From contig JAJFJQ010000030.1 in assembly GCA_021773835.1 (NCBI GenBank), positions 1 through 64,000 on the forward strand: a DNA stretch of 64,000 nucleotides. The letters run 5' to 3'. This document shows positions 1 through 26,998 of this stretch, in pieces. Made by a program: the position numbers and the translations under genes. The stretch is from Gammaproteobacteria bacterium. Lineage in GTDB: Bacteria > Pseudomonadota > Gammaproteobacteria > Ga0077536. The notes beneath the pieces were generated by a model. That model did no database searches. It saw only the letters and a program-made list of their open reading frames with translations, and was not told the DNA's origin. The first letter of the stretch is position 1. Every line of letters starts with the position of its first letter.

Positions 1-520
1 CCGGTTGTGTGTCCAGCGAAGGCTGGCGTGTTCAGCAGGAGACAGTCCTGCCGGGGTAAGAGTCAGCAACCCCGTAGCTTGGATAGCAGGGCGGAGGGAA
101 ACCGAAGTTCTGAAGCCTATCGACAAAGCCTTCCTTGGGGAGGTTGCGAGTCATTGGGCCGTAATAACAGTGAACGCACGGGTGGCCCCGAAAGTGTGTA
201 GCCCCGAAGGCCGAGCCCCCAACCGTAGGGCGAAGGCAGCATGGGCAGCCGAACGCTGGTTGAAACGGCTGTACCACTTCGGCGGGGTGGTAGCGATGGC
301 ACGATGACAAGGACACGCTAAGCAACTGGAGAAGCCCTCTTGGCCCTGGCTAGAAAATGGCTAGAGAAAGGTAGGTCCTATAACCGGTAGCACCGGGAAA
401 TGGGCTGAAGGCCAAAGGGTGGCGGATGGGTGTGTAGTAGTGATGAGGCGGGGTAATGCCCGCGGAGCAAAGGCACCCTACTGATGACATTCTTTTGACA
501 ATATGGGAGGCAAGGACGAA

Positions 521-1822
521 ATGATAAAAACGTCCATCAATTTGCAAGACCTGAGAAGGAAGATTTACCGAAAGGCGAAGGCTGAACCAGCCTGGCGTTT
601 CTGGGGACTGTACGTTCACGTTTGCAAACTGGAAACACTCGAAGTGGCCTACGAGATGGCGAAACGCAACGGCGGTGCTCCTGGCATCGACGGTGTGAGG
701 TTTGCAGCCATTGAGCAGGACGGCTTAGAAATGTTTCTACATGGCATTCGGGATGAATTGGTCTGTCAGAGCTACCGCCCCATGCGTAATCGTAACGTAG
801 AGATCCCAAAGTCCAACGGCAAAATGCGTAGGCTCGGGATCCCGACTATCCGAGACCGGGTGGTGCAAGGCGCGCTGAAATTGATTGTGGAACCGATCTT
901 TGAGGTTGATTTCCAAGACGGCTCTTATGGATACCGGCCGAAACGGACGGCCCATGAAGCGGTGAACCGAGTAGCTGATGCAGTGGTGAAGAACAAGACC
1001 ACGGTTATTGACGTGGATTTGGCGTCGTACTTCGACACGGTGCGGCACGACCTTCTACTGAAGAAGGTAGCCGACCGAGTCAGGGACGAGCAAATTCTCT
1101 GCCTGCTGAAGCTGATGCTCAAGGCCAGTGGCAAACGCGGCGTTCCCCAAGGGGGTGTGATTTCTCCGTTGCTCAGTAACCTCTACCTCAATGAGGTAGA
1201 CCGGATGCTGGAGCGGGCGAAAGCAGTCACCCGTCAGGGGCGATATACGTATATCGAGTACGCGAGGTTTGCTGATGATCTGGTGATCTTGGTCGATGGT
1301 TACCGTAAGTGGCGCTGGCTCGCGAATGCTGCGTACCGACGGCTGTTGGAGGAGTTAGCCAAGTTGGACGTTCAGCTCAACCGTGACAAAACTCGTCGAG
1401 TCGATCTCGCCCGAGGTGACGACTTCGATTACCTGGGTTTTAACTTTAGACGCAGCACGACGCGACGGGGTGTGATGGGTGTGCGGTATACGCCCACCCA
1501 GAAGGCCCGAACGACGTTGCTACGAAAACTCAAGGATGTGTTTCGACGTTTTCGCTCACAACCGGTGGGTCGGGTCATAGCCCTGATCAACCCGATGTTG
1601 CGCGGATGGGTAAACTACTTCCGCGTTGGGCAATCGAGTCGATGTTTTGGTTACGTACGAGATTGGGTGGAAAAGAAGATCAGGCGACATTTGATGCAGG
1701 CGCGAGGGCGCCGGGGCTTTGGCTGGAAGAGGTGGAGTAGGCGCTGGTTGTATGCACAACTGGGACTGTTTAGTCAGTACCGCGTTGTGCGCTACGCGCC
1801 GAAAGCGCTCCCGGCACAATAG
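521..1822 (+). CDS. Group II intron reverse transcriptase/maturase (endonuclease-less)
   Basis: A 433-aa RT/maturase that would assist splicing of its host intron and reverse transcribe it at a new site. ATG 521 is chosen because GGGAGG (505-510) lies 10 nt upstream; an in-frame ATG at 503 has no such site. Recognisable blocks are the palm motif GVPQGGVISPLLSN, the catalytic FADD (Asp about residues 252-253), the thumb/X maturase region with RGWVNYFRVG, and a basic C-terminus. The protein ends soon after domain X, so there is no HNH-type endonuclease domain, as in the En-less bacterial intron classes. Such enzymes rely on other priming at the target. It is the only complete RT in the window and so the only local candidate to act in trans on the RT-deleted intron at 25566-26469. 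Confidence 0.9.
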   Translation: MIKTSINLQDLRRKIYRKAKAEPAWRFWGLYVHVCKLETLEVAYEMAKRNGGAPGIDGVRFAAIEQDGLEMFLHGIRDELVCQSYRPMRNRNVEIPKSNGKMRRLGIPTIRDRVVQGALKLIVEPIFEVDFQDGSYGYRPKRTAHEAVNRVADAVVKNKTTVIDVDLASYFDTVRHDLLLKKVADRVRDEQILCLLKLMLKASGKRGVPQGGVISPLLSNLYLNEVDRMLERAKAVTRQGRYTYIEYARFADDLVILVDGYRKWRWLANAAYRRLLEELAKLDVQLNRDKTRRVDLARGDDFDYLGFNFRRSTTRRGVMGVRYTPTQKARTTLLRKLKDVFRRFRSQPVGRVIALINPMLRGWVNYFRVGQSSRCFGYVRDWVEKKIRRHLMQARGRRGFGWKRWSRRWLYAQLGLFSQYRVVRYAPKALPAQ

Positions 1823-1854
1823 GTCACATAAACTTTGCGGTGAAATCATCAGGA

Positions 1855-1887
1855 AAGCCCGGTGCCGGAAAACGGCACGCCGGGTTT
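1855..1887 (+). ncRNA. Domain V of group II intron 1
   Basis: A 33-nt hairpin just after the RT stop codon. It has the AGC catalytic triad (1856-1858), an 8-bp lower stem pairing with 1880-1887, a two-base CG bulge (1878-1879), a short upper stem and a GA-rich loop (GAAAA, one base longer than the usual tetraloop). This arrangement is diagnostic of group II domain V. Confidence 0.8.
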
Positions 1888-2056
1888 GCCGTGGCGGGAG
1901 CTGGAAACGGGATCACGAACATCCCTAGCCGGGCACGAAGGGGGCAACCCCGGATACAGACAAGGGATGTTCTATATCGGGTTACCGCGCCAGCTCTCGA
2001 CCCTACCGGTGAGCGGGCGCTGGAAACCAGCGGCAGCAATGTCGCCAGGCGCCAGC

Positions 2057-2595
2057 GCTCGACTCTACTTCGTTGCGAATCTATTCTACTGAAAAGCCAT
2101 TGGGTACTTGTCGTGATGGATCAGTTCACGCGCCGCATTATCGGCTTCGGTGTACATGCCGGCGATGTTGATGGGATCGCTCTGTGCTGCATGTTCAATA
2201 ACGCCATTTCTAGTCACGGTATTCCGCACTATCTAAGTTCTGATAACGATCCGTTATTTCGATACCACCGATGGAAAGCTAATCTTCGGATCCTTGAGAT
2301 CGATGAGATCAAGTCCATCCCTTATACGCCGCAATCGCATCCATTCGTCGAGCGATTGATCGGCACAATCCGTCGTGAACACCTTGACCACGTCTTCTTT
2401 TGGAACGGCCGGGATCTTGAACGAAAACTTGTCGACTTCGCGAATTACTACAACCGCGAACGGGCTCATCATTCTTTAGACGGAGCGTCACCGGCTGTTG
2501 TAAGCGGCGCGCCCCGCAATCAACATGCAAATATTGGCGATTATTCGTGGCAACAATATTGCAATGGACTTTTTCAGCTCCCAGCGGCTGCGTGA
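2057..2595 (+). pseudogene. IS transposase, 3' half (copy 1, integrase-core DDE family)
   Basis: This encodes the catalytic C-terminal half of an IS transposase of the integrase-core family that also occurs at 18011 and 26470. From RCESILLKSHW onward it aligns residue for residue with those copies. It keeps the second catalytic Asp (SSDNDPLF) and the Glu (HPFVERLIG) and ends in QLPAAA, like the other copies. The N-terminal half and the first catalytic Asp are absent; what precedes it is intron-derived or unexplained sequence (1921-2056). An open frame continues upstream to 1840, but that part reads through the intron 3' region and is not protein-like. The probable IS right end (AATTCGCCACACAC) follows at about 2600-2617. 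Confidence 0.75.
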
Positions 2596-11884: not shown

Positions 11885-13584
11885 CAACGCTTTCGCGGCA
11901 GGCTTACGCAGATCTATACGGTCCGACGACCGGCGACCGGGTCCGTCTGGCGGATACCGAGCTGATCATTGAGGTCGAGCGGGATTATACGACTTACGGA
12001 GACGAGGTCAGCTTCGGCGGCGGTAAGGTTATTCGTGACGGCATGGGCCAAAGCCAGGCCGGCGCGACAGTAGCAGTGGATTTGGTGATCACCAACGCGC
12101 TTATCGTCGATTACTGGGGTGTCGTCAAAGCCGATATCGGGGTGAATGATGGACGCATCAGTGCAATTGGTAAGGCGGGCAATCCAGACGTGCAGCCCGA
12201 TGTCGATATTGTCATTGGACCGGGTACAGAAATCATAGCCGGAGAAGGACGGATCGTAACTGCCGGTGGTGTGGATGCGCATATTCATTTTATTTGTCCG
12301 CAACAGATCGATGACGCATTAATGTCGGGGATCACCACCATGCTTGGTGGTGGTACGGGACCGGCGACCGGCACCAACGCAACCACGTGTACCCCCGGAC
12401 CTTGGAATATTCACCGGATGCTGCAGGCCGCAGATGTCTTACCGATGAATTTAGGTTTTATGGGCAAAGGTAATGCGAGTCTGCCTGACGCATTGGATGA
12501 GCAAGTCAATGCCGGCGCCATGGGCCTGAAGTTGCACGAAGATTGGGGTACGACCCCTGCTGCGATCGATAACTGCTTATCAGTCGCCGAACGTCACGAC
12601 GTGCAAGTCGCAATCCACACGGATACGCTAAACGAGTCCGGATTCGTCGAAGACACGGTACGGGCGTTTCAGGGTCGCACCATTCATACCTATCACACGG
12701 AAGGGGCCGGTGGTGGGCACGCGCCGGATATCATCAAAGTCTGTGGTGAAAGCAACGTGCTGCCGTCGAGCACAAATCCGACACGGCCGTATACCGTTAA
12801 TACTGTCGACGAACATTTAGATATGTTGATGGTGTGCCATCACCTCTCTCCAAGCATTCCAGAAGATGTTGCATTCGCCGAATCGCGGATTAGGCGAGAA
12901 ACAATCGCCGCGGAAGACATCCTGCACGATCTCGGTGCGTTCTCGATGATCGCCTCGGATTCTCAAGCGATGGGACGGGTTGGAGAAGTGATCACGCGGA
13001 CGTGGCAAACGGCACATAAAATGAAAGTGCAACGCGGGAGTTTGGCCGGCGACCCTGCTCATCACGACAATACCCGAGTAAAAAGGTACGTTGCCAAATA
13101 CACGATTAACCCCGCGCTCGCACATGGTATTGCCCATGAAGTCGGCAGTATTGAGGTTGGTCGACTCGCCGATATTGTCCTCTGGAAGCCGGCATTTTTT
13201 GGCGTCAAACCGAGTCTCATCATTAAAGGCGGTTTGATTAGCGCCGCCCCGATGGGTGATCCGAATGCCTCGATACCGACGCCTCAACCCGTGCATTACC
13301 GAAAGATGTTCGGGGCACTCGGTCGCGCTCGGAACGAGACGTGTATGAGCTTTTTATCCAATGGAGCGTTCGCGGCGGGAGTCGCTGATGAGCTGCAACT
13401 CAATAATCGGATCGGCTGTGTGCGTAATACCCGCGATGTAAGAAAATCAGATATGCGACTCAACGATTATCAACCGAAAATTGAAGTCGATTCACGAACC
13501 TACGAGGTCAGAGCCGATGGTGAACTGCTCACTTGCGAACCCGCCTCCGTGCTACCTCTCAGTCAACTTTATTTTTTATTTTAG
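11881..13584 (+). CDS. ureC: Urease alpha (catalytic) subunit
   Basis: A 567-aa catalytic subunit that hydrolyses urea to ammonia and carbamate. The nickel site is complete: His134 and His136 (DAHIHFICP), the carbamylated Lys217 in GLKLHEDWG, the downstream nickel-binding His residues ([22 protein letters not shown]) and the mobile-flap Cys319-His320 in MVCHHLSP. The numbering coincides with the standard enzyme. No truncation or substitution is seen. Start and stop fit the family length. Confidence 0.98.
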
Positions 13585-16169: not shown

Positions 16170-17185
16170 GTAGAGCGACAACGTCACCTCCGTTCCAACG
16201 TTCAATTGCACGGTTTTGTGGTGGCATCTTTATCCAAACCCGAGTGGGTACGATGCCCATGGTAGTAGATGAGGTATTCCTTCAGCGTGCGACGTAAATG
16301 ACTTTCGTTAAATACAATAATTCGGTCGAGACATTTACGGCGGACCGATCCGAGCGCACGTTAGGCATAAGCATTTTCCCAAGGTGGCGCCGGCGTCATT
16401 ACGATATCCTTGATCTCGAGTGCGGTAATTCACCGTTTAACGGCGCATCCAAATTTTGCGTCGCCGTCCCTAATTAAATATTTTGGTGCCGTATCAAACG
16501 GGAACGCTTCGGTGAGGTGCTGCGCCATCCATTTACCGGTTCGGTGTGCGGTAACATTGAAATTAACAACCCGCCGACGAACATGTTCGATGACGACCAA
16601 GACATAAAGCACTTTGAAATTCACGATCGGAACTGTAAAGAAATCTATCGCCGCGATTGCCTCACAATGATTCGTCAGGAATGTACGCCAACTCTGCGAC
16701 GGTGGTTTTCTATGTCGACGCGTGTAATTCGAAATCGTCGCTTCGCAAACATAGTAATCCAGCTTCAGAAGCTCTCCGTCGGTCCGTGGCACGCCCCGAG
16801 TGACGTTCTCAGATTGCATTCTGCGGATTAGAAACCGCAATTCGGAATCGACTATGGGGCGGCCTTGGCGGCGACTTTTCCAAGCCCAATAACGGCGAAA
16901 CCCTTCCCGATGCCATCGGACAACCGTATCAGGATGCAGCGCGAACAGATTTCCCCGCCAATTTCCAACAAATTGCGCGAAAACCATCCAAACGGCGCGA
17001 ACCATCGCGCTCGGGCGGGCGCGGTTCACCGAGCGCTTCAACACGACGATTTGTTGTCGAAGAGCGAGATTCTCTACCGTAAGCGCTCGCTGAGTTTTCA
17101 TAGACGAAAAAAGCGATGCAATTATTACGTTAATGTACGAAAACGATATGCAGACAATGCTTAAACCGCATGACAAAAATGACAA
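16170..17185 (-). pseudogene. Degenerate IS transposase (integrase-core family, multiple stops)
   Basis: A broken integrase-core transposase read on the minus strand. The open part (17185 to 16430) shows LVVENLALRQQIVVLKRS-like N-terminal sequence, the first catalytic Asp region (AIAAIDFFTVPIVNFKVLYVLVV) and the second (YLIRDGDAKFG). It then hits a stop. The protein similarity continues to about 16180 through further in-frame stops (WENAYA, then RRKCLDRIIVFNESHLRRTLKEYL, then HRTHSGLDKDA). Clearly inactive. Confidence 0.85.
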
Positions 17186-17207
17186 TTAGTTCAACGCGAT
17201 CGAGTTT

Positions 17208-17834
17208 TTAGGAGGGACAGGTTGGGTGCTCCGTTACATTGAAATGGACAACCTTGCGCCGATGACCGATAAGGATCACCAAGACGTACAACATCTTGAA
17301 CCTTACCGTTGGCACGACTAAGAAATCGATGGATACCATATCCTTCGCGTGATTGTTCAGAAATGATTTCCACGTCGGCGACGGTGGTTTCCGGGATCGC
17401 ACTCGATACTTCTCGACGGTAGATTTTGCGACGTCGATACTAAGTTTCCGAAGCTCGCCGACAATCCGCGGTGAGCCCCAGGTGACATTCGCTGTCGACA
17501 TGTTCCGGATCAGGTCTATGATCTCTTTTGGTACAGGCGGCCTCCCAGACTTGCCGCACTTGCTTAATTTAGCCCAATGATCCCGAAACCGTTTTCGTTG
17601 CCACCCAAGAACTGTTGCAGGCTGCACAATAACGAGGGCATCCCGCCAACCAGACCACCTTCGTGCGATCCAAGACCAGAATATTCGGTCGCCCCGCTTT
17701 ATTCGCGGTCGTGTAGTTGAGCGTTGATACACCATGATTCGATGTCTCAACGCGACGATTTCGAATCGCAGCGAGAGCCGTGACCGGAAAGTCGTAGACG
17801 CGAACGCTAACAGCGCACCGATAATGGGTTTCAC
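17208..17834 (-). pseudogene. Truncated IS transposase, N-terminal two thirds
   Basis: A relative of the transposase at 16170-17185, on the same strand. It has the N-terminal helix-turn-helix part (LRFEIVALRHRIMVYQRS), the linker GSPRIVGELRKLSIDV, and the first catalytic Asp in DMVSIDFLVVPTVRFKMLYVLVIL. Similarity stops at VVHFNVTEHPT; the second Asp and the Glu are missing, so it was cut near 17220. The two related fragments in tandem suggest nested insertion or recombination between copies. Confidence 0.85.
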
Positions 17835-17939
17835 GATCCTGGATCCTCACCGACACTAACAATAACCGGAGATCTCAGGCTGACGTTGCTTTAGAATTTC
17901 GTCAAGGATATCAACAAGTACGGATATTCGGGAAGGACA

Positions 17940-18010
17940 GGTGTTCGGGGAAACTCGCACGCACCGTTCTTAGGGGGGCGTGAGGCAGTAATGTCTCACG
18001 CCTACCCGAC
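17940..18010 (+). ncRNA. 3' remnant of a group II intron (partial domain V plus domain VI)
   Basis: From 17940 to 18010 the sequence is almost identical to 26400-26469, the end of the intact mini-intron: the GGGGAAAC loop region and CG bulge of domain V, then the domain VI stem with a bulged A and the CCCGAC 3' end. The bases ahead of 17940 do not match, so the AGC triad of domain V and all upstream domains are gone. It cannot splice. Intron base 18010 is followed directly by the transposase exon. Confidence 0.8.
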
Positions 18011-18548
18011 CGTCGATCTCTTTCGATGTGGATCGGTGATCCTGCAGTCCCATTGGGTAATGGTTGTTATGGATCAATTTACCCGCCGGATCATTGGCTT
18101 CTCTGTCCATGCAGGCCCTGTCGATGGACCTACACTCTGCCGACTGTTTAACAGTATCCTCGCCGCATCAGTAAGCCCACGATATTTGAGTTCGTATAAC
18201 GATCCGCTGTTCAAGTTTCACCGATGGAAAGCCAACCTACGGATCCTCGACGTCACAGAAATAAAGACCGTGCCCTATGTTCCACTCTCACACCCATTTG
18301 TGGAACGACTCATCGGTACCGTTCGGCGAGAGTTTCTCGACCATGTCCCATTCTGGGGTGCACGCGATCTGCAGCGGAAATTACATTCATTCGAAAAATA
18401 CTACAACCACGATCGTGCGCATCGCGGACTTAGAGGTGCGATACCTGAGGCGAAACCGGCGAACGCAGCTCAAAGCATTGCTCGCCTCGATAACTATCGA
18501 TCGAAATCCTCCTGCCGAGGTTTGTATCAATTGCCAATCGCGGCCTGA
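18011..18548 (+). pseudogene. IS transposase 3' exon (copy 2), catalytic Asp lost
   Basis: The C-terminal half of the same transposase family as at 2057 and 26470. It begins exactly at the intron/exon junction with the first catalytic Asp (VDLFRCGS) and runs to SCRGLYQLPIAA. The second catalytic Asp is replaced (SSYNDPLF instead of SSDNDPLF), while Glu in HPFVERLIG is kept. The N-terminal half is missing. The IS right-end sequence AGTAATTCGCACCCAACAC follows the stop at 18551-18569. Confidence 0.85.
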
Positions 18549-18571
18549 TTAGTAATTCGCACCCAACACGT

Positions 18572-18790
18572 GAGTTTCTCGACCACGTACCTTTCTGGGG
18601 TGCTCGCGATCTGGAAAGGAAATTACATTCGTTTAAAGAGTACTACATACAAGATCGCGTTCACCGTGGACTCGAAGGTGCAATCCCAGACGCAAGGCTA
18701 CCGGGCGGAAATAGAAGCGTCGCTCGCCTCGATGACTACCGATGGAAATCCTGCTCCCGTGGCTTATATCAATTGCCAACCGCGGCTTAA
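18572..18790 (+). pseudogene. IS transposase C-terminal fragment (copy 4)
   Basis: A 72-residue tail of the same transposase, EFLDHVPFWGARDLERKL to CSRGLYQLPTAA, starting abruptly right after the right end of copy 2. It carries its own right-end sequence (AGTAATTCGCATCCAACAC, 18793-18811). Two right ends of one IS family thus stand in tandem, which suggests unequal recombination or a nested insertion followed by deletion. Confidence 0.8.
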
Positions 18791-18828
18791 TTAGTAATTC
18801 GCATCCAACACGTTGCCGGCAAGCAATG

Positions 18829-19870
18829 GGGCCTTTGACAGTGTGGGTGTCGGTGGTCAGGGTCGGAAACAGCAGGATGTTGTCCTTTCCTTGATGATTT
18901 CTCTCGCCATGATAATGCGCTAGATAATTGCGCAGGGCGCGCCCCAGCGAGGCTTCGCCAAACAAGATCAACTTGGCCAGGCACTCGTCCTTAACCGACT
19001 TCACCCAGCGCTCGGCGTAGGCGTTCAAATTCGGACTCCGAGCTGGGAGCTTGAGTGGCTCTACATCACTCGATTTGACGATCGCGCGAAAGGACTCCGT
19101 GAATTTCGTATCGCGGTCATGGATGAGATATCGGCGGCTCTCGAGGAAGCCCCATTCATCCATGGTGACATTCCTGGCGATCTGCATCATCCAGGCTTCA
19201 TTGGGATGGAGCGTGATCCCGGCGATCTCAACGCGACGGCTTTCGAGATGGATGAAGAACAGCACGTAGTAGGTGACCAAGCCGCGCAGTGTGAACACTT
19301 CCACGGTGAAGAAGTCGGTGCCAGCGAGAACGGCCATGTGGGCGCGGATGAACGCTTTCCATGTCGTGGTACGCTTGCGCGCTCTGGGGCCGGGGGAATG
19401 CCGTTGCGACGGAGAATGCTCCCTATCGTCTCGTCCGACAGGGAATAGCCCAGATTAGCGAGCGCGCCTACGATTCGATCGTAGCCCCACCCGATATTCT
19501 CTTTGGCCAGCAGAACGACTAAGTCTTCGATTTCACTATCAACCCGGGGCCAGCCAGGGCAGCGGCGTGCCTTTGAACCATCGAACTTACGGGGGACGAG
19601 CTTCCGATACCAGCCGATAATCGTGTCTGGCTTGGCTGTGTTCGCGACGTCCTCGAGCGCTTTACGACCGAGCCTATGGGCAATTTCGGCGAGTGTCTTT
19701 TTCTCAGCATCCGACAGCAGGAGACGACCCTTGATCTGCGCCCTCAGGATCCGGTTCTCGGTGGCGAGGTATTCGTTGCGCAACAGAAGCTCCTCGTCGA
19801 CGCTCCCCGTGATGTAGGCCAGGATCTGAACCCACTCCATGTACTCCTCCGTGCGTATCCGCGTTACCAA
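18829..19870 (-). pseudogene. Frameshifted IS transposase (integrase-core family)
   Basis: A transposase on the minus strand that is almost complete but broken by a frameshift near 19370. The first part (19870 to about 19370) has LLSDAEKKTLAEIAHRLGRKALEDVA, PDTIIGWYRKLV and NIGWGYDRIVGALANLGY. After the shift the catalytic part continues in another frame: LAGTDFFTVEVFTLRGLVTY (first Asp), YLIHDRDTKF (second Asp), NAYAERWVKSVKDECL (Glu). All three catalytic residues survive. Between GIPPAPER and KRTTTWKAF a single-base change of phase is enough to explain the break; the homopolymer-free context does not suggest programmed slippage. Confidence 0.85.
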
Positions 19871-25014: not shown

Positions 25015-25565
25015 ATGCGTGATCTCGTTATTCTTTTCATACACCTTCTCATCACGATCGCCCGCGTGGTCGGACCGGGAGGCACGCGTTCCGTTGTTGC
25101 TGAATCGTTACTGACAAAACATTAGATCCTGATAATCAATCGCTCACGAACACGAACGCCGCGTCTACGCTTGAGTGACCGAATTATCGTTGGGATATGC
25201 GCCATATTGATGCGCCCTACCCGCTTGCTACGGTCGGCAATTATCCTGGAACCCTCGACAATTCTCAGTTTTCATCGAGCACTAGTTAGTCGTAAGTACC
25301 ACCTGTCATTTACCCCGAAAAATCGCCGTAAACCTGGGCCTGTAGGACCATCACCGGAGTTGATCGCGATCATCGTTGAAATGAAACGCAGAAATCCCCG
25401 CTTCGGTTACCAGCGGATCGCGGATCAAATCTCATTGATTTTCGATATCCATGTTGATAAAGATGTGGTCCGCCGCGTGCTAGCGCGGCACTACCAGCCT
25501 CAAGGTGGATCAAACGTTCCATCCTGGCTTACATTTCTAGGTAATAGCAAAGACAGCTTATGGAG
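25015..25565 (+). pseudogene. IS transposase 5' exon (copy 3), one nonsense codon
   Basis: The N-terminal half of the transposase whose C-terminal half starts at 26470. From ATG 25015 it reads MRDLVILFIHLLITIARVV, then GTRSVVAESLLTKH, a TAG stop at 25123-25125 where relatives have Gln, and onward ILIINRSRTRTPRLRLSDR to VPSWLTFLGNSKDSLW. A TTG at 25171 could restart translation downstream of the stop. The exon ends TTATGGAG at 25565, two bases into a codon, exactly at the intron 5' end. With the intron removed the next codon is AGC (Ser), then GTC GAT (Val-Asp), which supplies the first catalytic Asp. Confidence 0.85.
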
Positions 25566-26150
25566 GTGCGACAAGAAGTCGCTTTTACGAGTTGTTCCCC
25601 CGACTGGAGGGAACCACCTGTTCCACCAGGTGAGCCTACCGGCATGAATCAAGAGCTACCGGGACAATGTACCAAAGCAGTAAGGAAGTGCGGGGGAGAA
25701 ATCGTGAGAGGCCTCCCCTCCTGGAAACCTCATCCGGGTGAGGGCTAGGCGGTTGGTATGGTGAAGATATCTGGATCTGCGATAAAGATCGTCAGCTGTA
25801 ACAAGCTAAAGAGGTTGTTAAGCTTGAGCCAAAAGGCGTCAGAAGTCGGATGTCCGTCTCTCCATTGCGGCATTGTGGACCACAAGCTTCTCGGTCGAGA
25901 GCAGGCACCTAACCCAATGACTCGTGAAAGCGGAACTTGGAAACCCCGTATCGTTCTCGGCTTCGGTCGGGACAGCGCGCCGCGAGGCTCGCCTATGGCG
26001 GTGCGGGTTTGGGATGTCGGAAGAAGCGAATGCCGTGCTGTAATGGTGCGGATACGGGTTTGAATGTCACCCGGCACGAAAGTGAGCCCACGTCCGACGG
26101 GTCTTTCATCGCAAGAGCGTGTGTAGAACCGTCAGCATGAGGAAACGCAA

Positions 26151-26387
26151 ATGACAACGACGGCTATGCCGTTGCTTGGTGCCTCCTCAGCGGCGTTGAC
26201 CTGGGATGCCATCGAATGGCAGAACATGGAAAAGCAGGTACGGCGGCTGCAGATGCGGATTGCGAAGGCGACTCGGGAGGGGCGTCGGAGCAAGGCGAAA
26301 GCCATGCAATGGCTCCTCACCCACTCGTTCTCGGCCAAGTTGTTGGCCGTGCGGACGGAGAAACCGGGTCAGGCAACTGGCTCTTGA
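26151..26387 (+). pseudogene. Remnant of the intron-encoded reverse transcriptase (N-terminus only)
   Basis: A 78-codon open frame in the intron. TWDAIEWQNMEKQVRRLQMRI, REGRRSKAKAMQWLLTHSFSAKLLAVR matches the N-terminal (RT0) segment of group II RTs, normally followed by VTENxGKxTPGVDG. Here the frame ends after EKPGQATGS, and domain V begins 7 nt later. The palm, thumb/X and any endonuclease domains are deleted. It differs from the RT at 521-1822, confirming that two intron lineages are present. Confidence 0.8.
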
Positions 26388-26394
26388 GAGGCTT

Positions 26395-26469
26395 GAGCGG
26401 TGTTCGGGGAAACTCGCACGCACCGTTCTTAGGGGGGCGTGAGACAGCAATGTCTCACGCCTACCCGAC
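26395..26469 (+). ncRNA. Domains V and VI of the mini-intron
   Basis: Domain V spans 26395-26428: GAGCGGTG pairs with CACCGTTC, with the AGC triad at 26396-26398, a CG bulge at 26419-26420 and a GAAA tetraloop at 26409-26412. Three bases later domain VI forms a long stem, GGGGGGCGTGAGACA against TGTCTCACGCCT-A-CCC, closed by GCAA, with the presumed branch-point A (26463) unpaired. The intron ends in AC, fitting the AY rule. Confidence 0.88.
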
Positions 26470-26998
26470 CGTCGATCTCTTTCGTTGCGAATCGGTGATC
26501 CTGCAGTCCCATTGGGTCATGGACCAGTTTGCCCGACAGATCATTGGCTTCTCTGTCCATGCGGGTCCCGTCGATGGACCTACCGTCTGTCGACTGTTCA
26601 ACAGCATCCTCGGTTCATCAGCAAGTCCACGATATTTGAGTTCGGATAACGATCCGTTGTTCAAATTTCATCGATGGAAAGCCAATCTTAGAATTCTCGA
26701 TGTCGAAGAAGTTAAGACCCTGCCTTATGTTCCGCTCTCACATCCCTTTGTGGAACGGCTCATCGGAACCGTAAGGCGAGAGTTTCTCGACCACGTACCT
26801 TTCTGGGGTACGCTCGATCTGGAAAGGAAATTACATTCATTCAAAAAATACTACAACCAAGATCGTGCGCATCGCGGACTTGGAGGTGCAATTCCGGACC
26901 CGAGGCTAACGAGCGGAAATCGAAAAACCGCTCGCCTCGATGACTACCGATGGAAATCCTGCTGCCGAGGTTTGTATCAATTGCCAACCGCGGCTTAA
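26470..26998 (+). pseudogene. IS transposase 3' exon (copy 3), catalytic half
   Basis: It continues the reading frame of 25015-25565 after intron removal and gives the catalytic core: VDLFRCESVILQSHW (first Asp), SSDNDPLFKFHRW (second Asp), HPFVERLIGTVRREFLD (Glu), ending CCRGLYQLPTAA. Compared with copy 2, three residues (VVM) are missing before DQF by an in-frame 9-bp deletion. Spliced from TTG 25171 the product would be 307 aa; from ATG 25015 it is blocked by the TAG at 25123. Activity is doubtful, but the DDE triad is complete after splicing. Confidence 0.85.

Follow-up and report, generated by a model that had tools for sequence, protein, structure and literature searches.

An ORF-deleted group II intron next to the first catalytic Asp codon of an insertion sequence transposase, probably a decaying retroelement in a dead element copy

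A transposase gene of this gammaproteobacterial genome is interrupted just ahead of a catalytic codon by a group II intron, which raises the question of whether the intron works as a splicing switch for the insertion sequence (IS) or is the remainder of a decaying retroelement. The intron lies in the window, by which we mean the whole stretch of 64,000 nucleotides that was analyzed (positions 1-64000 of contig C23), within a draft assembly of 6.14 Mb in 74 contigs. According to our analysis, the best explanation overall, and one that we hold with considerable confidence, is that of a retroelement in decay within an IS copy that is itself dead, and not a working splicing switch. The features concerned are listed in Table 1.

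Table 1. Features of the intron-bearing transposase locus, of related loci in the window (positions in the window) and of surveyed loci (locus names)
Feature	Position or locus	Strand	Remarks
Group II intron, ORF-deleted	25566-26469	+	904 nt, GTGCGAC..CCCGAC, inside transposase gene
Exon 1, N-terminal part of transposase to KDSLW plus AG of Ser codon	25015-25565	+	ends TTATGGAG
Exon 2, remainder of transposase (VDLFRC..., SSDND, HPFVER)	26470-26998	+	starts CGTCGAT
IBS2, ACAGCT	25553-25558	+	perfect 6-bp pair with EBS2
IBS1, ATGGAG	25560-25565	+	perfect 6-bp pair with EBS1
EBS2, AGCTGT	25794-25799	+	pairs with IBS2
EBS1, CTCCAT	25860-25865	+	pairs with IBS1
Domain I core	25614-25745	+	Rfam group-II-D1D4-7 (RF02012), 81.3 bits, cut-off 34
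Domains V and VI	26393-26469	+	Rfam Intron_gpII (RF00029), 57.5 bits, cut-off 40
Remnant of intron-encoded protein, 78 aa	26151-26387	+	matches positions 1-51 of 83 of RVT_N (PF13655)
3' end (DV-DVI) of same intron, 5' part missing	17940-18010	+	69/71 identical
Exon 2 of second, diverged transposase copy	18011-18548	+	first Asp of SSDND is Tyr
DVI piece of B-type intron, then exon 2 of related transposase	2008-2592	+	by eye against L165, L021
IS66 Glu motif	L144, L146, L206, L207		directed set
IS6 Glu motif	L205		directed set
IS256 first Asp	L204, L215, L216		directed set
IS3 first Asp	L200, L201, L202, L203, L212		directed set
Within 15 nt of codon taken as catalytic	L166, L171, L180, L190, L192 (IS3-like), L243 (IS66)		host-blind set

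The junctions are those given in a preliminary description of the locus (end of exon 1 at 25565, intron from GTGCGAC to CCCGAC at 26469, exon 2 from CGTCGAT). Its placement of the intron just before the first catalytic Asp codon was likewise borne out and can be made more precise, in that a Ser codon is split (AG/C, the slash marking the cut) 4 nt upstream of the Asp codon of the motif S-V-D. Joined, the exons read KDSLWSVDLFRCES, in frame and, as had been claimed, with the motif of the intact relatives; this KDSLWSxD block is shared without variation, apart from x, by 34 intact relatives, which come from 37 that were selected out of the 80 loci described below. The two perfect exon pairings were confirmed, and an alignment places the EBS1 and EBS2 loops at the same, homologous positions as in seven related introns, with the introns of L144 and L146 being alignable over about 786 nt. 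When each of the eight introns is paired with its own exons, the summed pairing is matched by 4 of 40,320 assignments, the true one counted; the loops of L144 and L206 are identical, and the own pairing is imperfect in some relatives. The check with Rfam covariance models that had been proposed accepted the domain I core (81.3 bits against a cut-off of 34). Domains V and VI, the domain I core and IBS/EBS pairing at the splice site thus place the element among the group II introns, and A26463 is its candidate branch point. These results support a genuine group II intron that sits in frame at its proper homing target, the position being that of the first catalytic Asp in a DDE transposase.

The joined 24-nt target AAAGACAGCTTATGGAGCGTCGAT is found uninterrupted, letter for letter, in a locus of Seongchinamella sediminis (L086), and uninterrupted in L092 as well, where two silent differences follow the junction. 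Empty sites were drawn from a scan of genome contigs with the transposase alignment, using the best 80 of 236 confirmed loci, 70 of which fitted the degenerate pattern of the screen. This set is well suited for empty sites but unable to count occupied ones, because it was found partly via KDSLWS[IV]D, a pattern that an intron breaks. The suggested comparison of the genome and its relatives for the IS with and without the intron was answered in part: the two loci named above carry the empty target, while among 36 genomes of the family the occupied junction was found in the own genome only. Intron DNA matched 6 of 96 related genomes, the own one included and mostly with short pieces, and a phage search returned two records with a short match. 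The multicopy nature of the IS is seen in the two intron copies of this genome (one of them just a 3' end), an empty relative on contig C33 and the empty sites in L086 and L092. Within the gene, the 25 nt at the insertion rank 25 of 1052 in DNA conservation and the IBS stretch 15 of 1064. The site of a second, B-type intron (see below) ranks 66 of 1052 and its IBS stretch only 244 of 1064, the latter rank counting against an argument from conservation.

Relatives of the transposase have about 360 aa and are found in many places; at E 1e-25, 13 of 321 genomes in the class gave a match, among them the own genome and three with an identity of only 28-31%. The own genome contains an intact, uninterrupted 362-aa gene on C33, a 60% relative. 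Pfam rve_3 and rve match the intact relatives, rve remaining below the cut-off for two of four. A protein model of the L086 transposase (mean pLDDT 63, pTM 0.45, with a better core) displays the element order of RNase H-like folds, with D186 in the first core strand. In a Foldseek comparison with the PDB it matches TnsB and retroviral integrases best (E about 1e-6, with TM about 0.3 by query length); one of these, the ASV integrase core 1asu, has a TM of 0.69 when normalized by target length and of 0.33 when normalized by query length. The core order of the model and the matches to TnsB and integrases thus point to the first catalytic Asp as the place of the intron. Element order and conservation suggest that D246 and E282 may complete the DDE triad.

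The 3' end of the same intron lies upstream in the window, directly before exon 2 of another copy of the transposase. It had been proposed that the intron spreads with the IS; the identity of 69/71 between the intron ends, set against differences at 76 of 524 aligned positions between the two exons 2 (dN 0.093, dS 0.511), favors separate homing instead. The dN/dS of 0.18 between these exons indicates that both copies were mostly under purifying selection, a point against a dead IS copy, although all of this selection may predate the insertion. In a Fisher test of intron end against exon 2 divergence, p was 0.004 with all 71 nt included and 0.15 when DVI was taken by itself; the case for separate homing is therefore suggestive only. 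Alternatively, both A-type copies could descend from a single transposed, intron-bearing IS, which would fit their location in the same IS family and at the same site. The unequal divergence of intron ends (2/71) and exons 2 (76/524) speaks against such joint descent, albeit weakly, since DV is constrained, DVI by itself gives no more than the p value above and gene conversion is possible. We regard joint descent as rather unlikely; it concerns the history of the copies only and is compatible with a decaying retroelement. Broken transposase pieces are clustered on both strands at 16200-19250 of the window, among them, at 18566-18787, yet another 3' fragment of this IS, the third.

The transposase reading of the window copy is damaged on both sides of the intron. 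Exon 1 aligns to residues 5-191 of an intact relative (P0001) at 53% identity with one TAG, which is in frame at 25123-25125 (+) when read against the relatives; an alternative frame from 25171 avoids it and lacks about 52 N-terminal residues. Exon 2 has a 9-nt in-frame deletion after HW, by which the second core strand is three residues shorter than in all 9 other rows of the alignment; the loss would presumably affect the enzyme. The D, D and E residues are all kept in the joined reading, whose frame is broken after splicing by the TAG at 25123. Because of this stop and the core-strand deletion, no complete enzyme is expected even after splicing, and the transposase copy is probably dead in the spliced form as well. 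The idea that a complete DDE enzyme arises only after splicing is thus not upheld, both lesions being retained in the joined reading.

The intron itself has lost most of its coding capacity. Compared with L144, about 1.46 kb are absent between intron positions 786 and 823, and in place of a full reverse transcriptase/maturase, which ORF-less members of the group can dispense with, there is the 78-aa remnant. Its N-terminus has no second copy in the assembly, and the intron-encoded protein (IEP) of the relative L144 gave no match there at the strict limit of E 1e-120; the search covered the 74 contigs, which could lack a full-length parent intron. Given an intron without its own maturase, and an assembly in which no such maturase was found, it is doubtful that splicing occurs in the cell, and the proposed dependence of transposition on intron activity is not supported. 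With the IEP deleted, autonomous homing by the window copy is not expected. Other group II IEPs of this genome (window 521-1822; L149 1015-2376 and 7701-9227) might act in trans on the window intron. The preliminary description had overlooked the near-complete deletion of the intron ORF, the further lesions of the transposase and the intron 3' end at 17940-18010 before another exon 2.

An intron that still splices, with its own or a trans-acting maturase, and thereby gates a functional transposase whose transposition depends on intron activity would be in keeping with the intact frame and target, the conserved ribozyme parts and the DDE residues of the joined reading. The upstream TAG, the missing residues and the lack of a cognate maturase in the assembly make it improbable, as does the example of RmInt1, where correct splicing in vivo concerns less than 1% of the exons (PMC4238363). 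That intron-like sequence was joined to IS pieces by chance or misassembly, as a 74-contig draft with repeats at contig ends might allow, is very improbable in light of two Rfam parts over their cut-offs, perfect EBS/IBS pairing in the right loops and an exact empty site elsewhere.

We posit that a group II intron reached the IS transposase gene by retrohoming and inserted where the first catalytic Asp is encoded; EBS1 and EBS2, which are seen to pair with the conserved codons for KDSLWS, would have guided it there. Most of the reverse transcriptase/maturase ORF would then have been lost with the tested ribozyme parts kept, and the IS copy would have decayed through the premature stop and the strand deletion. 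Any splicing, for example by a maturase in trans, would restore the frame and not a complete enzyme.

Splicing-dependent IS elements are already published. For RmInt1 in ISRm2011-2 of Sinorhizobium meliloti, the authors describe splicing as essential for IS mobility and propose the intron as a limit on IS spread (PMC4238363, PMC5894124). RmInt1 resembles the window intron in lying within a transposase gene and differs from it in being described as an active mobile intron, in an IS630-family element, whereas the window intron is ORF-deleted and its damaged IS has an rve-type core. The window intron adds one case of a mobile intron parasitizing a mobile element and is useful as a late, decaying stage of such parasitism. 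In E. coli, E.c.I4 (IntA) occupies specific positions of the multicopy IS3-like transposases of IS629, IS911, ISEc16 and ISEc31, and E.c.I3 sits in IS679 (PMC3522654). E.c.I4 is like the window intron in having copies inside multicopy IS transposases, but belongs to another intron lineage and another IS family. Four E. coli introns of our survey lie in IS3 transposases after GDVTY (L200, L201, L203) or TDITY (L202), with an IEP that is full-length in L200, L201 and L202 and shortened in L203. We take these four to be E.c.I4 or near it. Han 2004, a reference of PMC3522654, reportedly dealt with how IntAs transpose to regions that are conserved in IS3 elements. The closest relatives that we found are the introns of the IS66 and IS6 elements L144, L146, L205, L206 and L207, with an identity of about 67-68% over DI. 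They too are inside transposase genes at a motif that we assume to be catalytic, but target the Glu motif, whereas the window intron targets the first Asp. A reverse transcriptase is annotated in L144, L146 and L207; L205 has DV without a listed one, and L206 has neither in the stretch read.

The same motif is the target of a further intron in this genome. On C14, a relative of the transposase (83% to the C33 gene, residues 3-193) is cut at ATC GAT CTA T/GTGCGCC, 4 nt past the same Asp codon and at a distance of 11 nt from the site of the window intron, by another, B-type intron whose relatives are mostly found on rhizobial and sphingomonad plasmids (57 records). In the window, a short piece at about 2008-2068, read by eye as B-type DVI, is followed by exon 2 from TTCGTTGCG at 2069, again with the insertion 4 nt after this Asp codon. 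The C14 locus (exon 1 and B-type 5' end) and C23:2008-2592 (B-type 3' end and exon 2) may be halves of one locus and were therefore counted as one. Contigs C14 and C23 both end in what appears to be the same IS256-like element (L021 3062-4291; end of L149), and the assembly breaks at these points hide the B-type locus. Within window 1-2068, an intron with a 433-aa reverse transcriptase/maturase ends near 2007 with the DVI-like piece of a different intron directly after it, and was taken as nested in the B-type intron within the IS transposase. It was rejected as a third insertion at the same site, as it ends before the piece read as B-type DVI. Another intron, with a 508-aa reverse transcriptase, interrupts an IS3-like transposase (WDITK) 10 nt after the first Asp codon (L149 7041-9317, C23 about 105.0-107.3 kb). 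Of 5426 E. coli genomes, 2370 contain similar DNA, and 1829 have a place with coverage of 80% or more; the full-length E. coli places among the matches listed are about 67-68% identical.

The part worth following is the convergence on catalytic codons beyond this genome. One set, of 23 regions, was assembled in a directed and non-random way from plasmids and E. coli, the E. coli matches being picked with their IS3 annotation in view. Thirteen introns of this directed set lie in a recognized transposase gene, and all 13 at a motif that we take to be catalytic, the catalytic residues of IS3, IS5, IS6, IS66 and IS256 being assumed positions throughout the survey. The remaining regions comprise three between traU and trbC (L165, L210 and L211, the latter two from annotation only), one in another gene (L214), four without gene assignment (L145, L208, L209, L213) and two with exons left out (L217, L218). 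A host-blind set consisted of DV/DVI loci from the best-scoring genomes, in samples of 30 and 28 (58 different). The 3' exon was recognized as transposase in eight of these, six of which are at most 15 nt from the presumed catalytic codon, including the IS3-like case of the own genome (L166). The other two are counterexamples, an IS5-like element with the intron about 29 nt before Asp (L199) and an IS66 element with the intron about 46 nt after Glu (L236). At a rough chance of 9% per event, by our own estimate, six of eight has a binomial probability of 1.3e-5, which is overstated because related introns are not independent. Motifs were recognized by eye, in the host-blind set from exon 2 only (L166 apart), and unrecognized transposases are possible among the rest. 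Introns outside transposase codons are counterexamples as well, namely the C-type intron of L149, which adjoins an IS481-like gene at its 3' end, and a D1D4-6 intron on C10 near an IS481-like gene.

We give an even chance to the reading that several group II lineages have converged on homing sites at the catalytic Asp and Glu codons of DDE transposases, codons that would serve as a universal address within the pool of mobile DNA. In this reading, the lineage of the window intron would use nearly the same IBS for the Glu of IS66 (after ..NNWIE, ..NNPVE or ..NNWVE) and of IS6 (after ..NNVIE), and the first-Asp motif here. A second set, made up of relatives of the C14 intron and the IS3-resident E. 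coli introns, would use the first Asp of IS3, IS256 and the window IS. Inteins, by analogy, sit at active-site motifs. No statement of a catalytic-codon rule was found in a literature search of titles and abstract openings, with subscription journals mostly outside its range. If true, the wider pattern would amount to a simple persistence rule for bacterial group II introns, namely residence in codons that a DDE transposase cannot change. Such a rule would predict homing sites, be applicable to all annotated introns and explain intron jumps between unrelated IS families.

Introns were also found in tRNA-like sequences and in DExH-type helicases, and transposases are therefore one target class among several. 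The tRNA-like cases are from Gammaproteobacteria (L153, L155, L164 and L219; ..TTCCCAAGC/ and /..GGGTTCGATTCCCATC..), where L153 and L155 share their loci with L183 and L177, respectively. Two introns lie in apparent DExH-type helicase genes (L151, which is the same locus as L195, and L173), that of L151 just after VVDEGHEYK, again an active-site motif. Finally, the window contains at 12034-12316 (-) a match to Rfam 5_ureB_sRNA, a family known from Helicobacter, with 119.8 bits at a cut-off of 40.
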